DNA from: an uncultured Pelagibacteraceae bacterium
GTDB taxonomy: Bacteria > Pseudomonadota > Alphaproteobacteria > Pelagibacterales > Pelagibacteraceae
Assembly (NCBI GenBank): GCA_902537055.1
Contig: CACAZW010000001.1
Span: 62,001 to 126,000, forward strand
DNA length: 64,000 nt
Direction of reading: 5' to 3'
Shown: in pieces, positions 25,440-31,593 of the stretch
Numbering within the stretch: position 1 is the stretch's first letter
Layout of the letters: each line of letters starts with the position of its first letter
Position numbers and translations under genes: made by a program
Notes under the pieces: generated by a model
What the model was told of the DNA's origin: nothing
Databases searched by the model: none
The model's input: the letters and a program-made list of their open reading frames with translations, nothing else

Positions 25440-25516
25440 GGCGGGGTAGCTCAGTTGGTTAGAGCGCGGGACTCATAAGCCCGAGGTCAGTGGTTCGATC
25501 CCACTTCCCGCTACCA
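25440..25516 (+). tRNA. tRNA-Met (CAT anticodon)
   Basis: A 77-nt cloverleaf: acceptor ggcgggg against tcccgct with G-T pairs at both ends, D-arm agctcagttggttagagc, anticodon arm cgggactcataagcccg with CAT, T-arm agtgg-ttcgatc-ccact, and an encoded CCA. The overall sequence resembles elongator tRNA-Met of alphaproteobacteria. CAT could also belong to tRNA-Ile2 (lysidine-modified), which is less likely from the acceptor sequence. The last pair of the anticodon stem is an A-G mismatch. Confidence 0.93.
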
Positions 25517-25594: not shown

Positions 25595-26122
25595 TTAGTG
25601 ACCTGGAAAATCTAAAAGGTTTTCAACACGATATCCCTTTTTAATTAGATTATCTGTACCACCTAAGTCAAAAAGATTTATTACAAAAATAAAACCAGCT
25701 ACTTTACTTTTTGATATTTCAATTAATTGACCAGCTGCTTCTGCTGTACCACCAGTAGCAATTAAATCATCAATTATTAAAACTTTGTCACCTTCGTCAA
25801 ATGAGTCTTTATGGACTTCTATAGTAGCTGTTCCATACTCTAGTTCAAAATCAACTGAATGAACTTCACTAGGTAATTTATCTTTTTTTCTTAACATTAT
25901 AAACGGCTTGTCCAAAATATAAGAAATTGCAGAAGCAAAAACAAAGCCTCTAGATTCAACAGCAGCAATTTTATCAAACTGAAACTTTTTTGATCTTTCA
26001 ACGATTTGATTTATGCACTCTTTAAAGGCTTTTTCATTTTTTATGAGTGTTGTAATATCTCTGAACAAAATTCCTTTTTTGGGATAATCATGAATTGATC
26101 TAATATGTTCTTTTAAATCCAT
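25595..26122 (-). CDS. apt: adenine phosphoribosyltransferase
   Basis: A 175-residue enzyme converting adenine and PRPP to AMP. The N-terminal DLKEHIRSIHDYPKKGILFRDITT and the PRPP-binding loop VLIIDDLIATGGTAEAA are diagnostic. The length is normal. It is divergent, across a 38-nt gap, from a run containing mtnP, the enzyme that releases adenine from methylthioadenosine. Co-location suggests a shared task of adenine recovery after polyamine synthesis. Confidence 0.96.
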   Translation of the reverse strand: MDLKEHIRSIHDYPKKGILFRDITTLIKNEKAFKECINQIVERSKKFQFDKIAAVESRGFVFASAISYILDKPFIMLRKKDKLPSEVHSVDFELEYGTATIEVHKDSFDEGDKVLIIDDLIATGGTAEAAGQLIEISKSKVAGFIFVINLFDLGGTDNLIKKGYRVENLLDFPGH

Positions 26123-26160
26123 TATTATTATATAACTACTATAATAGGTTGACTTTATAT

Positions 26161-26982
26161 ATGATTATAAAAAATTCTTATTTAATTAACGCTTTCAAAA
26201 TACTTTTATTTTTAATTATTTTAGAAGGTCTTATTTGTCAACCAAATATTGGTAGATTGGGAATTACGGACATTAATGGTGGAAATATATATAAGGTTTT
26301 TATTACTGACAATTTGAAATTTTCAACATTTGATTTTTGTCAAGAAAATTATTTTTTTTCTAATTTTTGGGCAGAGAATGGTTTTGTTGAAAACATGCAA
26401 TCATTGTTTTTATTTATTTCAATTATCCTACTTTTTAAAGCACGAATGAAATTTTTACAGAATAACATAATTAGCCTTTTTTTAATAATTAAAATATTTG
26501 CTTTAATATATTATTTAGGAGAAGAGATAAGTTGGGGCCAGCATTTTTTTAAATGGGGTACAAGTGAATGGTTTAAAATTCATAACAATCAAGATGAAAC
26601 TAACTTGCACAATATTTCAAATCTTTTTGATCAATTACCTAGAACACTAGTTATGATATGGTGTACTTTAGTTGTTCCATTAACACTTTTTTTGATTAAT
26701 CGTATAAAGATAAATAAAGACATTCTCAAAATTCTTTGTCCAGATAGAAAACTATTAATAATCTCTATTATTCTAATTACTATTATTGTCCCAGATTTAT
26801 TGATTGATAAATTTAATTTACATCCAGGCTGGACTGATGTAGATGGATCCCGTTTAAATAATTATTCATATTTTTATGATATGATATCGTTAAATTTTAT
26901 TAGGTTGTCAGAATTGCAGGAATTTGTTTTTTCTTACTATTTCTTCATCTATTCAAATTCATTTAAAAATAAAAATATATAA
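26161..26982 (+). CDS. polytopic membrane protein of unknown function
   Basis: A 273-residue protein with about six to seven hydrophobic segments. I start it at the ATG at 26161; the ORF track uses a TTG four codons earlier. The segment GEEISWGQHFFKWGTSEWF followed by ETNLHNIS, between membrane helices, is a conserved pattern that I associate with a widespread uncharacterised membrane-protein group. No catalytic assignment is possible. It is 19 nt upstream of mtnP on the same strand and may be co-transcribed with the methylthioadenosine salvage genes. Confidence 0.7.
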   Translation: MIIKNSYLINAFKILLFLIILEGLICQPNIGRLGITDINGGNIYKVFITDNLKFSTFDFCQENYFFSNFWAENGFVENMQSLFLFISIILLFKARMKFLQNNIISLFLIIKIFALIYYLGEEISWGQHFFKWGTSEWFKIHNNQDETNLHNISNLFDQLPRTLVMIWCTLVVPLTLFLINRIKINKDILKILCPDRKLLIISIILITIIVPDLLIDKFNLHPGWTDVDGSRLNNYSYFYDMISLNFIRLSELQEFVFSYYFFIYSNSFKNKNI

Positions 26983-27001
26983 ATTATAATTATTAATTTT
27001 C

Positions 27002-27874
27002 ATGAAAAAAAATAAATTAGCAATAATTGGTGGAAGTGGCCTTTATGATGTGGAAGAGTTAAAAAATAGAGAATTATTAAACTTAGATACTCCCTGGGGA
27101 AAGCCGTCTGATCAAATTTTAAAGTTTAATTATAAAGATAAAGAAGTTTATTTTTTACCAAGACATGGAAAAGGTCATTTTATATCTCCTTCTAAAATAA
27201 ACTTTAGAGCAAATATTGATGCTCTTAAACAACTAGGTATCACAGACATTGTTTCTGTTTCAGCAGTAGGATCTTTAAAAGAAGATCTACCTCCAGGTAA
27301 ATTTGTTATCGTTGATCAGTTCATTGATAGAACTTTTGCGAGAAACAAAACTTTTTTTGATGATGAAATTGTTGCGCATGTATCAATGGCACATCCAACT
27401 TCAAATGGGCTGATGAATGCTTGCGAAGATGCTATTAAAAAAGAAAATATACCTTATCAAAGAGGTGGAACTTATGTTGTAATGGAAGGTCCACAATTCT
27501 CTACATTAGCTGAGTCAAATCTATATAGATCATGGAAAGCAGATGTTATTGGAATGACAAATATGCCAGAAGCTAAACTAGCAAGAGAAGCAGAAATTAG
27601 ATATGCTTCAGTTTCTATGGTGACAGACTATGATTGCTGGCATCCAGATCATGAAAATGTTGACGTTCAACAAGTTATAAAAGTACTCTTAGATAATGCT
27701 GCAAAAGCAAAAAATATGATTAAAAATTTGATAGATAACTTTGAAAATCATATTGATCCTAATGACCCAACTAATAATTGTTTAGATGTAGCAATAATTA
27801 CTGCTTCAGAAAAAAGAACACAAAAAACTAAAGACAAATTAAAAACAATTGCAGGAAGGGTACTTAATAAATGA
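27002..27874 (+). CDS. mtnP: S-methyl-5'-thioadenosine phosphorylase
   Basis: A 290-residue phosphorylase that splits methylthioadenosine into adenine and methylthioribose-1-phosphate. Family features: IIGGSGLYD at the N-terminus, PRHGKGHFISPSKINFRAN, VVMEGPQFSTLAES and GMTNMPEAKLAREAEI, the purine-site segment that separates MTA phosphorylase from PNP. It overlaps the following gene by 4 nt. MTA comes from spermidine synthesis, encoded three genes downstream. Confidence 0.95.
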   Translation: MKKNKLAIIGGSGLYDVEELKNRELLNLDTPWGKPSDQILKFNYKDKEVYFLPRHGKGHFISPSKINFRANIDALKQLGITDIVSVSAVGSLKEDLPPGKFVIVDQFIDRTFARNKTFFDDEIVAHVSMAHPTSNGLMNACEDAIKKENIPYQRGGTYVVMEGPQFSTLAESNLYRSWKADVIGMTNMPEAKLAREAEIRYASVSMVTDYDCWHPDHENVDVQQVIKVLLDNAAKAKNMIKNLIDNFENHIDPNDPTNNCLDVAIITASEKRTQKTKDKLKTIAGRVLNK

Positions 27875-28845
27875 AAAAAATTTTAGGGATCGTGGTTATT
27901 AGTTTATTGTTAATCAGTAATGTTTATTCTAAAACAATAGTGGTAAAAGCTAATCCAGAAAAAGGTTTTAATTTTCCTTATTTATTAAAAACTTCAAAAA
28001 AAACTGTTGATGCTAATTACATAGTAGTAGAGTCAAATAACACTGGTAGTGATTATTCAATTAAAGGCATGACTAGTAAAGCTAAAAAATCTTTGAGTTG
28101 GGTTTTAGGCTCAAGTATTTCAAAAAAACTGAATTACCCAATGTTAATGCCTGTTTTTCCATTCGGCACTTCGGCACTAATGCAAAATAAATATTATTTT
28201 CCTCAATTAGACAGCGATGTTCTAAAAATAGATAAAGATAAATATAGAAGAATTGATTTACAGTTAATTGCAATGATTGATGACGCAAGAGAAAAATTAT
28301 TGAAAGAAAATAATCAAAATATTAATGAAAAAGTGATTATGGTAGGATTTTCATCATCATCTTTATTTTCTGCAAGATTTACTTTTTTACATCCAGATAG
28401 AGTTTCAGTAGCTATAGGTGGAGGAATAGGAGGCTTATTACCTGTTCCAGCTGACAAAATTAATGGAATTGAAGCAATATATCCAATTGGAACATATGAT
28501 TTTGAAAATATTACTGGTACAAAATTTAATTTAGAAGAGTACAAAAAAACTCCACAATTTTACTATCAAGGCACAAAAGATAAATCAAATCCCTTTAGAA
28601 GAGGGGCTGAAGATTTAACAGATGAAGAATACAAAATTGTAAAAAAACTTTTTGTAGATGGTTTACCTTTTGGAGACAAACCTGTTTCTTTAAAAGTAAG
28701 CACTGTTATGTGGAATAATTCTCAAAAATATATTAATCAAATAGTAGATAATGTTAAATTTGAAAGTCCTAAAGGTTTAGGACATGAAATAACACCTAAA
28801 ATGATAAGAAAAAGTACAAAATTTATTAAAGAAAATTTAAAATAA
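27871..28845 (+). CDS. secreted alpha/beta-hydrolase-like protein
   Basis: A 324-residue protein with a signal peptide (residues 1-20). A GFSSSSLFSARFTFLHPDRV segment near residue 160 looks like the nucleophile elbow (G-x-S-x-S) and following helix of an alpha/beta hydrolase, and GHEITP near residue 312 could carry the catalytic His. No clear family name. It overlaps mtnP at its start and mtnA at its end, so it is firmly inside the methylthioadenosine salvage operon, yet it is exported while the pathway is cytoplasmic. Its role is unknown. Confidence 0.6.
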   Translation: MKKILGIVVISLLLISNVYSKTIVVKANPEKGFNFPYLLKTSKKTVDANYIVVESNNTGSDYSIKGMTSKAKKSLSWVLGSSISKKLNYPMLMPVFPFGTSALMQNKYYFPQLDSDVLKIDKDKYRRIDLQLIAMIDDAREKLLKENNQNINEKVIMVGFSSSSLFSARFTFLHPDRVSVAIGGGIGGLLPVPADKINGIEAIYPIGTYDFENITGTKFNLEEYKKTPQFYYQGTKDKSNPFRRGAEDLTDEEYKIVKKLFVDGLPFGDKPVSLKVSTVMWNNSQKYINQIVDNVKFESPKGLGHEITPKMIRKSTKFIKENLK

Positions 28846-29924
28846 TGAAAATTAATGGCGTTGAATATAAAACAATTTGGTTTGATGAAGAAAAACAAGT
28901 TGTAAAAATAATAGATCAAACAAAGCTTCCACATAAATTTGTAATAAAAGAATTAAGTTCAGTTAAAGATGCTATAAATGCTATCAAAACAATGGAAGTT
29001 CGAGGTGCACCATTAATTGGAGGAACGGCTGCATTTGGATTAGTTCTAGCTATTAAAGAAAATAACAATTTAGATTTTATAAAAAAAAGTTCAGAAGAAT
29101 TAGTTGCTTCTAGGCCAACGGCTATAAATCTTCAATGGGCAGTGCATAGAATGAACAATAAACTATCATTTGTTGAACCTGGAGATTTATTTAATGTTGC
29201 ACTCAAGGAAGCTAAAGAAATTTGTAAAGAGGATGAAGGATTTTGTGAAAGTATTGGTAAAAATGGATTAAATATTATTGAAGATATATATAATAAAAAA
29301 AAAGATACCGTAAATATTCTCACTCATTGTAATGCAGGTTGGTTAGCTACAATAGATTGGGGAACGGCAACTTCTCCTATTTATCACGCACATAAAAAAG
29401 GAATACCAATACATGTTTGGGTAGATGAAACTAGACCAAGAAATCAAGGAGCAAACCTTACATCATATGAACTTAATGAAGAAGAAATTCCTAATACAAT
29501 TATAGCAGATAATACAGGTGGAATATTAATGCAAAGAGGACAGGTTGATATGTGTATTGTTGGAACAGATAGAACATTATCTAATGGAGATGTGTGCAAT
29601 AAAATTGGTACATATTTAAAAGCTCTTGCAGCTCATGATAATAAAGTTCCTTTTTATGTTGCTTTACCAAGTTCAACGATAGATTGGAATTTAAAAAACT
29701 CTAAAGATATTCCAATAGAAGAAAGAGATCCAAAAGAACTTTCTCATGTAGATGGAATTAACAAAGATAATAAAGTTGATAAAGTTTTAATTTATCCAGA
29801 GAAAAGTAAATCATTAAATTTGGCTTTTGATGTAACTCCAGCTAAGTATGTTACAGCATTAATAACAGAAAAAGGAATATGCGAAGCCTCTACTGCAGGT
29901 TTAAATGGTCTCTTCAAAAACTAA
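28845..29924 (+). CDS. mtnA: S-methyl-5-thioribose-1-phosphate isomerase
   Basis: A 359-residue eIF2B-like isomerase. Matches are VRGAPLIGGTAAFGL, the active-site loop NILTHCNAGWLA (catalytic Cys), VWVDETRPRNQGANLTSYEL and the general acid region CIVGTDRTLSNGDVCNKIGT. It converts the methylthioribose-1-phosphate made by MtnP to methylthioribulose-1-phosphate. The ATG overlaps the stop of the preceding gene, and its 3' end overlaps the aldolase gene by 20 nt. Confidence 0.95.
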   Translation: MKINGVEYKTIWFDEEKQVVKIIDQTKLPHKFVIKELSSVKDAINAIKTMEVRGAPLIGGTAAFGLVLAIKENNNLDFIKKSSEELVASRPTAINLQWAVHRMNNKLSFVEPGDLFNVALKEAKEICKEDEGFCESIGKNGLNIIEDIYNKKKDTVNILTHCNAGWLATIDWGTATSPIYHAHKKGIPIHVWVDETRPRNQGANLTSYELNEEEIPNTIIADNTGGILMQRGQVDMCIVGTDRTLSNGDVCNKIGTYLKALAAHDNKVPFYVALPSSTIDWNLKNSKDIPIEERDPKELSHVDGINKDNKVDKVLIYPEKSKSLNLAFDVTPAKYVTALITEKGICEASTAGLNGLFKN

Positions 29925-30549
29925 TAAAAAGAAAAATGATGTTATTAAGTTTTCAAAAATGCTTAATGACAAAAAATTATCAGCTTTAAGATCCGGCAAT
30001 ATATCAGTCAGACATAAAAATGGTTTTCTTATTACCCCTTCAGGAAAAAAATACTCATCACTAAAAGTAAAAGATATAGTGTTTGTAAGTCTAGATGGAA
30101 AATATGAAAAAAAATATAAACCTTCGTCAGAATGGAGATTTCATCAAGATATTTATATCAAAAAGAAAGATGCACAAGCAATAGTTCATACACATTCAAC
30201 TAATGCAACAGCTCTATCTGTTCACAAAAAACCTATACCAGCTTTTCATTACATGGTTGCACTTGTGGGAGGTAATGATATTAAATGTGCAAAATACGCA
30301 ACTTATGGAACAAGAGAGCTTTCAAAAAACATTTTAAAAGCTTTGAATAATAGAAAAGCCTGTTTGATTGCAAATCACGGTCAGATTGCATTTGATAAAA
30401 ATCTACCTGATGCTTTTGAATTGGCACAAGAAGTTGAAAATTTGAGTTTACAGTATATAACCGCCCTTAAGCTTGGAAAGCCAAAAATTCTTTCTATAAA
30501 TGAAATGAATAAAGTTTTAAAAAAAGCTAAAGATTATAAAAGAGGTTAA
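29905..30549 (+). CDS. class II aldolase/adducin-family enzyme, possible methylthioribulose-phosphate aldolase
   Basis: A 214-residue zinc aldolase/epimerase. Metal ligands appear in IVHTHSTNA (two His) and ANHGQIAF, with the Glu of PSSEWRFHQDIY; GNISVR near the N-terminus is the phosphate site. The family covers fuculose-1-phosphate aldolase, ribulose-5-phosphate epimerase and MtnB dehydratase. Because mtnP and mtnA precede it and no mtnC, mtnD or enolase gene is visible, I infer the Ald2-type reaction of the DHAP shunt (methylthioribulose-1-phosphate to DHAP plus methylthioacetaldehyde). MtnB is the main alternative. Confidence 0.78.
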   Translation: MVSSKTNKKKNDVIKFSKMLNDKKLSALRSGNISVRHKNGFLITPSGKKYSSLKVKDIVFVSLDGKYEKKYKPSSEWRFHQDIYIKKKDAQAIVHTHSTNATALSVHKKPIPAFHYMVALVGGNDIKCAKYATYGTRELSKNILKALNNRKACLIANHGQIAFDKNLPDAFELAQEVENLSLQYITALKLGKPKILSINEMNKVLKKAKDYKRG

Positions 30550-30552
30550 TAG

Positions 30553-31593
30553 GTGACAAAAGTTGGTGAACATATAACTCTAGATATCATTGGAACTAAA
30601 AAAGAATATGATCCCTCATTTTATGAAAAGTTAGTTTATAAAATTGCAAAATTAGCAAAAGTAACAGTTTTAAAGATTTCAAAATATAAATTTGAGCCTC
30701 AAGGTTTTACATTGGTAGCTCTGTTAGCAGAAAGCCATATAAGCTTTCACACTTTCCCGGAAAATGAAATTATAAGCTTTGATTTTTTTACTTGTGGTAA
30801 AGTTTCACCATCAGTTGCTCTTAAAGTAATAAAAGAAGAAATAGAACACAAACAAATCATTATTAAGGAATTTAACAGAGATACGATTGATCTATATCAT
30901 GATAACTATAGTTCACCAGGATTAAAAAAATCTTATGTTGTAAATAAAGTATTAGAAAATTTTAAATCTAAGGTTGGTCAATATATTGAAATATTAGATT
31001 TAGAACAGTTTGGAAAAGCTTTATTTATTGATAATGAAATACAAGTTGCTGAGAGTGATGAACATTTATATAGCTCAACCTTTGTAAATTCTGGTCTTAA
31101 TTTGAATTCAAATAAAGAGAAAGCTGCAATTATTGGTGGAGGTGACGGTGGTGTTGCAAGAGAATGTATTTCACAAAATTTTGGATTTATTGATTGGTAT
31201 GAATTAGATCCTGAAGTTGTTGATGTATGTGATAAACATTTAAGTAAAATAGGAGAAAAGGCGACAGAAAAAAATTCAGTTAAATGTGTCTGGGGTGATG
31301 CATTTGAGAGCATTAAATCAGTCAAAGATAATACCTATGATCAAATTTTTGTTGATCTTAACGATGATCAATTTTGCATAGATTTAGCAGCAAAAAATAT
31401 GTCATCTTTAGAAAGAATTTTAAAACCTAAAGGTGTAATTACTGCTCAAGTTGGAAGCCAAGATAAAAAACCAAAACAAGTTGAAAATTGGTTAAATGTT
31501 TTCAACAAAAATTTTGGAAATACAAAACTTTCAAGAGTTTACATACCAAGTTTCGATTGTTCTTGGAATTTTTCCTCTTCAATAAATCATTAA
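30553..31593 (+). CDS. S-adenosylmethionine decarboxylase-spermidine synthase fusion
   Basis: A 346-residue two-domain protein starting at GTG 3 nt after the aldolase stop. Residues 1-115 are a class 1B AdoMet decarboxylase proenzyme: AESHISFHTFPE holds the self-cleavage Glu60/Ser61 that makes the pyruvoyl group, with His66 and Cys81. Residues 120-346 are an aminopropyltransferase: GGGDGGVARECI binds decarboxylated AdoMet, and WYELDPEVVDVC is the adenosine-binding strand. The catalytic-acid loop reads VDLNDDQF, not the common DSTDPxGP, so the amine acceptor may differ from putrescine. No internal start or stop separates the domains. Its by-product MTA feeds mtnP and mtnA in the same run. Confidence 0.85.
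   Translation: MTKVGEHITLDIIGTKKEYDPSFYEKLVYKIAKLAKVTVLKISKYKFEPQGFTLVALLAESHISFHTFPENEIISFDFFTCGKVSPSVALKVIKEEIEHKQIIIKEFNRDTIDLYHDNYSSPGLKKSYVVNKVLENFKSKVGQYIEILDLEQFGKALFIDNEIQVAESDEHLYSSTFVNSGLNLNSNKEKAAIIGGGDGGVARECISQNFGFIDWYELDPEVVDVCDKHLSKIGEKATEKNSVKCVWGDAFESIKSVKDNTYDQIFVDLNDDQFCIDLAAKNMSSLERILKPKGVITAQVGSQDKKPKQVENWLNVFNKNFGNTKLSRVYIPSFDCSWNFSSSINH

Follow-up and report, generated by a model that had tools for sequence, protein, structure and literature searches.

A speD-speE gene fusion in SAR11 was described by Green et al. in 2011, as cited in PMC8437039 (the 2011 paper is also cited in PMC12803844), and the title of the 2011 paper refers to independent origins of such fusions. 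The fusions of Ca. Pelagibacter ubique HTCC1062 (WP_011282223) and Ca. Pelagibacter sp. HTCC7211 (WP_008544956) were expressed in Escherichia coli in 2024 (PMC11107197). Spermidine was made in a speD mutant, so the AdoMet decarboxylase (AdoMetDC) domain works; spermine and thermospermine were made in a speE mutant, and norspermidine was produced from diaminopropane (PMC11107197). It has also been proposed that SAR11 SpeE is reversible and degrades spermidine and norspermidine (PMC8437039). Other bacterial fusions of AdoMetDC and aminopropyltransferase, one from a deltaproteobacterium (MBW2649524; PMC12803844) and an alphaproteobacterial one found in this study (L131), have the same domain order as the protein analyzed here, with L131 being only 29% identical to it. 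Human spermine synthase likewise has a SpeD-like N-terminal fold followed by an aminopropyltransferase, but this N-terminal domain is no longer active as an AdoMetDC (PMC12803844), whereas the SAR11 one retains all processing residues.

The window, i.e., the whole analyzed stretch of 64,000 nucleotides, originates from an uncultured Pelagibacteraceae bacterium. A preliminary description, made from the sequence alone, had reported SpeD and SpeE fused in one 346-aa protein at 30553-31593, processed at Glu60/Ser61. ORF calling and translation, Pfam and NCBIfam searches, and alignment with the solved structure 3iwb showed that the coordinates, the domains, and the predicted cleavage site were correct. 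The gene is a single uninterrupted ORF on the forward strand, starting with GTG at 30553 directly downstream of an in-frame TAG and ending with its stop codon at 31593. It is read here as the SAR11 SpeDE fusion enzyme, including predicted self-cleavage, use of decarboxylated AdoMet (dcAdoMet), and likely removal of methylthioadenosine (MTA) by the neighboring gene products (probability about 0.95). The gene and its domains are as follows:

30553..31593, + strand: speDE, AdoMet decarboxylase-aminopropyltransferase fusion (ORF, Pfam, full-length orthologues)
30571..30879, + strand: class 1b AdoMet decarboxylase domain, residues 7-109 (PF02675, E 1.4e-26; TIGR03330 above cut-off)
30898..31053, + strand: spermidine synthase N-terminal (tetramerisation) domain, residues 116-167 (PF17284, E 1.2e-7)
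31060..31572, + strand: spermine/spermidine synthase catalytic domain, residues 170-340, with a shortened C-terminus (PF01564, E 2.8e-24)

All three Pfam domains (AdoMet_dc, Spermine_synt_N, and Spermine_synth) scored above their gathering thresholds. The SpeD part belongs to the class 1b SpeD family (PF02675, 93.4 vs. gathering score 25) and exceeded the curated cut-off of the Bacillus-type AdoMetDC model TIGR03330 (95.5 vs. 75.65 bits). The SpeE part carries the GGGDGG motif and matched both PF01564 and PF17284 above cut-off, as expected for an aminopropyltransferase, but it scored below the cut-offs of the equivalog models TIGR00417 speE (106.6 vs. 249.55 bits) and NF002010 (126.6 vs. 260 bits). 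It was therefore classed as a divergent aminopropyltransferase and not as a strict spermidine synthase. In NCBIfam, the two best SpeE models are matched only as far as profile positions 233 of 287 and 222 of 271, so the ~50 residues usual at the C-terminus are missing. With the equivalog scores below cut-off and the C-terminus short, the product range of SpeE is unreadable from sequence.

The residues and motifs of both domains are located at the following positions:

31354..31365, + strand: Asp268-Leu-Asn-Asp271, likely counterpart of the catalytic D-x-x-D(P) of spermidine synthases (both Asp invariant, 27-row alignment)
31135..31152, + strand: GGGDGG dcAdoMet-binding motif, residues 195-200 (invariant; motif described in PMC11107197)
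30730..30735, + strand: codons of Glu60/Ser61, predicted self-cleavage site, where Ser61 would become the pyruvoyl group (invariant in 90 sequences; 3iwb alignment)
30748..30750, + strand: His66 codon, counterpart of T. maritima His68 (invariant; role from PMC10407285)
30793..30795, + strand: Cys81 codon, counterpart of T. maritima Cys83 (invariant; role from PMC10407285)

Residue 2 of the solved alpha chain 3iwb (68 aa) was aligned with residue 62 of the query, so residue 61 falls on the first residue of 3iwb, and Ser61 is the predicted processing serine that would form the pyruvoyl group. Glu60, Ser61, His66, and Cys81 were invariant in 90 out of 90 distinct sequences, and GGGDGG, Asp268, and Asp271 were invariant throughout the 27-row alignment; the two aspartates likely correspond to the D-x-x-D(P) motif, which is catalytic in spermidine synthases. 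The class 1b SpeD of T. maritima has S63 as the processing residue and H68 and C83 as catalytic ones (PMC10407285), and all three have counterparts in the window protein (Ser61, His66, and Cys81). Both domains of speDE are under purifying selection: dN/dS (Nei-Gojobori) was 0.03-0.18 in both domains among SAR11 copies where unsaturated, some SpeD comparisons being saturated at synonymous sites, and 0.08-0.39 among phage copies wherever computable.

From this conservation and the published activity of the relatives, self-cleavage of the proenzyme is predicted at the Glu60-Ser61 bond. The products would be a beta chain of residues 1-60 and an alpha chain of residues 61-346, the latter bearing the pyruvoyl group and including the transferase. 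The earlier suggestion that the cleaved alpha chain would remain covalently attached to the synthase is supported. The SpeD part would decarboxylate AdoMet, and the SpeE part would move the aminopropyl group to putrescine, probably also to spermidine and 1,3-diaminopropane, with MTA being released.

The structure prediction proposed in the preliminary description was run with AlphaFold (mean pLDDT 86.7, pTM 0.65). Human spermine synthase (3c6k/3c6m, 355-372 columns) accounted for the six best structural matches of the model, and 3c6k was the best full-length match; at a full-length TM-score of only 0.56, the model does not fix how the domains sit relative to each other. Model confidence was lower around residues 101-130. 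These values bear on the idea that the fusion forms a substrate channel, in which the SpeD active site would hand dcAdoMet straight to that of SpeE. The covalent linkage, the short gap between the domain matches (SpeD ends at 109 and SpeE starts at 116 in Pfam), and the retention of the fusion across SAR11 and phage copies are consistent with channelling, but the low confidence near 101-130 and the TM-score leave the relative position of the two sites undefined, and a small genome could equally well retain the fusion for the sake of co-expression and equal dosage. Direct transfer is considered an unlikely conjecture, which would add to the SpeDE reading.

The substrate of the SpeD domain was considered as well. 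Changes of substrate are documented for class 1b homologues, including that of pelagiphage HTVC201P (PMC9992855; PMC10407285), and, as happened in some pelagiphages, the domain could have become an arginine or ornithine decarboxylase (SpeDA or SpeDC type). Such a switch is very improbable here, as the SpeD part passed the AdoMetDC equivalog cut-off (TIGR03330), is joined to an aminopropyltransferase, and is the only SpeD of its genome, and the Pelagibacter relatives yield spermidine in the E. coli speD mutant (PMC11107197).

The fused gene was then followed across SAR11. Identical (100%) copies of the window protein occur in records named uncultured Pelagibacteraceae, and intact copies, identical or 99% identical, were present in many separately assembled single-cell and metagenome-assembled SAR11 genomes, with no frameshift separating the domains. 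A speDE match was obtained in 215 out of 297 genomes sampled from the order (some of the matches are fragments) and in 122 out of 150 order genomes with completeness of at least 90%. The family search for the same domain order returned full-length fusions across SAR11 genera, those in other genera of the family being 62-66% identical to the window protein. Adjacent speD and speE genes exist in other alphaproteobacteria, so a lost stop codon could make two genes look like one; such an artefact of assembly or sequencing is rejected, because the intact fusion recurs independently in these genomes, in other genera, and on phage contigs. Fused speDE is the usual arrangement in SAR11. The novelty implied by the preliminary description did not hold, as the fusion itself was published years ago (Green et al. 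2011, as cited in PMC8437039; PMC11107197).

The window protein combines an N-terminal class 1b SpeD and a C-terminal aminopropyltransferase in one chain encoded by a single-copy gene. In a profile search of its own genome (~89% complete), neither a second PF02675 match nor a separate dcAdoMet-type speE was found, an absence that is not absolute at this completeness. The only other PF01564 match above cut-off in this genome was a 542-aa membrane-fused protein with a spermidine-synthase-like domain and no GGGDGG motif (L103, 562-2190, contig 3). The Ca. Pelagibacter fusions WP_011282223 and WP_008544956 share the SAR11 lineage, the domain order, the N-terminal class 1b SpeD, and the divergent transferase that is the only one of the genome. 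Judging by lineage, architecture, and the single gene copy, these two are most likely orthologues of the window protein.

Twelve genomes of the family have no SpeDE, and no PF02675 match at all was obtained in them; nine of the ten that were checked encode a homologue of deoxyhypusine synthase, which is a candidate for a homospermidine synthase. The genome of the window encodes two PLP-dependent ornithine/arginine decarboxylase homologues, one of which lies ~0.5 kb from a deoxyhypusine synthase homologue. This pair resembles the Pelagibacter ADC and DHS genes described in PMC9992855.

The genes identified upstream of speDE are as follows:

25595..26122, - strand: apt, adenine phosphoribosyltransferase, which would take up adenine derived from MTA (TIGR01090 above cut-off)
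27002..27874, + strand: mtnP, methylthioadenosine phosphorylase, predicted MTA disposal (NF006492 and TIGR01694 above cut-off)
28845..29924, + strand: mtnA, methylthioribose-1-phosphate isomerase (TIGR00512 above cut-off)
29905..30549, + strand: class II aldolase, FucA-like (Ald2-like) (PF00596, E 4e-50; FucA-like NCBIfam models below cut-off)

The observed gene order is apt (on the opposite strand), mtnP, an ORF starting at 27871, mtnA, the class II aldolase, and speDE; 3 nt separate the stop codon of the aldolase gene from the start of speDE. The 324-aa ORF between mtnP and mtnA (27871-28845) had no Pfam or NCBIfam match and occurs in only a few related loci. Downstream of speDE are genes for an ABC transporter of the amino-acid type and for a nitrilase-family protein. 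The search for RNA regulators near the operon with Rfam gave only a tRNA at 25440-25513.

MTA is both the by-product of SpeE and the substrate of MtnP, and the upstream mtnP, mtnA, and aldolase, with apt nearby, would probably remove it. In the DHAP shunt, which is known from E. coli and other organisms (PMC10986504), as predicted for the window neighbors, MtnA and a class II aldolase act on the MTA-breakdown product, the aldolase using 5-deoxy- or methylthioribulose phosphate; unlike there, mtnA and the aldolase of the window are located directly upstream of speDE, and the substrate of the aldolase is a prediction. Judging from family assignments and gene order, the genes at 25595-30549 likely form a DHAP shunt-like module for MTA disposal. 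In many related loci, mtnP and mtnA are upstream of speDE in the same direction. One arrangement is mtnP-mtnA-aldolase-speDE; another has mtnP-mtnA and a bifunctional aldolase/short-chain dehydrogenase on the opposite strand; and in a further one a short nucleosidase-like gene is beside apt. Locus L056 has the bifunctional aldolase/short-chain dehydrogenase and neither mtnP nor mtnA within the stretch examined. These varying neighbors may mostly represent alternative MTA disposal routes beside speDE.

Scans of IMG/VR yielded eight contigs with fused speDE and a ninth match (L152) with the SpeD part only (37% identity). The phage contigs are fragments of 4.7-9.6 kb, and their hosts were inferred from the nearest isolates. 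Seven of the eight (L140 and L145-L150) form one group, with 60-61% identity to the window protein in those measured, and six of these seven retain at least part of the order nrdA-speDE-nrdB-ruvC. The order is primase-nrdA-speDE-nrdB-ruvC in L145 and L149, and also in L140, in which the primase is partial; L147 and L148 have a partial nrdA, L150 starts inside speDE, and L146 has speDE and nrdB with a different upstream gene. On the eighth contig (L144/L151; speDE at 1-915 of L151), the gene is beside T4-like baseplate genes. The genes flanking speDE on L141/L145 were closest to those of Pelagibacter phage Mosig EXVC030M (NrdB 90%, primase 85%), as was the L151 baseplate protein (58%). In the isolates, the slot between nrdA and nrdB has no speDE: it is occupied by two small hypothetical genes in Mosig, and by a hypothetical gene and a gene annotated as PurM in HTVC008M. 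The latter gene (L159, 4361-5008) had no Pfam match at E 0.001, so its annotation may be doubtful.

In a tree of 29 proteins, the two phage groups were placed at separate positions inside SAR11. The L151 SpeDE clustered with other SAR11 genera and was thus probably acquired separately. A single origin of all phage copies, with one phage clade, was rejected (AU test, p 1.7e-5), and the tree requires that the gene was acquired from SAR11 at least twice. No fused phage gene was found in isolated phages, as no INPHARED record covered 80% of the phage protein. The virosphere survey in PMC9992855 reported only one phage with both activities, encoded by separate SpeD and SpeE genes; the word "fusion" is absent from its text, and no phage fusion was found in the literature searched, which was of limited coverage. 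The phage-borne fused speDE is therefore possibly unreported. It is probable that SAR11-type speDE was captured at least twice by T4-like, pelagimyophage-related marine phages as a selected auxiliary metabolic gene, in one group in the variable nrdA-nrdB slot, and that it would provide a single protein turning host putrescine into spermidine during infection.

That two polyamine enzymes share one chain is well established for this highly abundant group of ocean bacteria, and the gene order links spermidine synthesis to the removal of its by-product MTA. The phage copies are a less expected side result and the part worth a second look; these relatives point to a possible role of spermidine supply in the growth of phages in SAR11.
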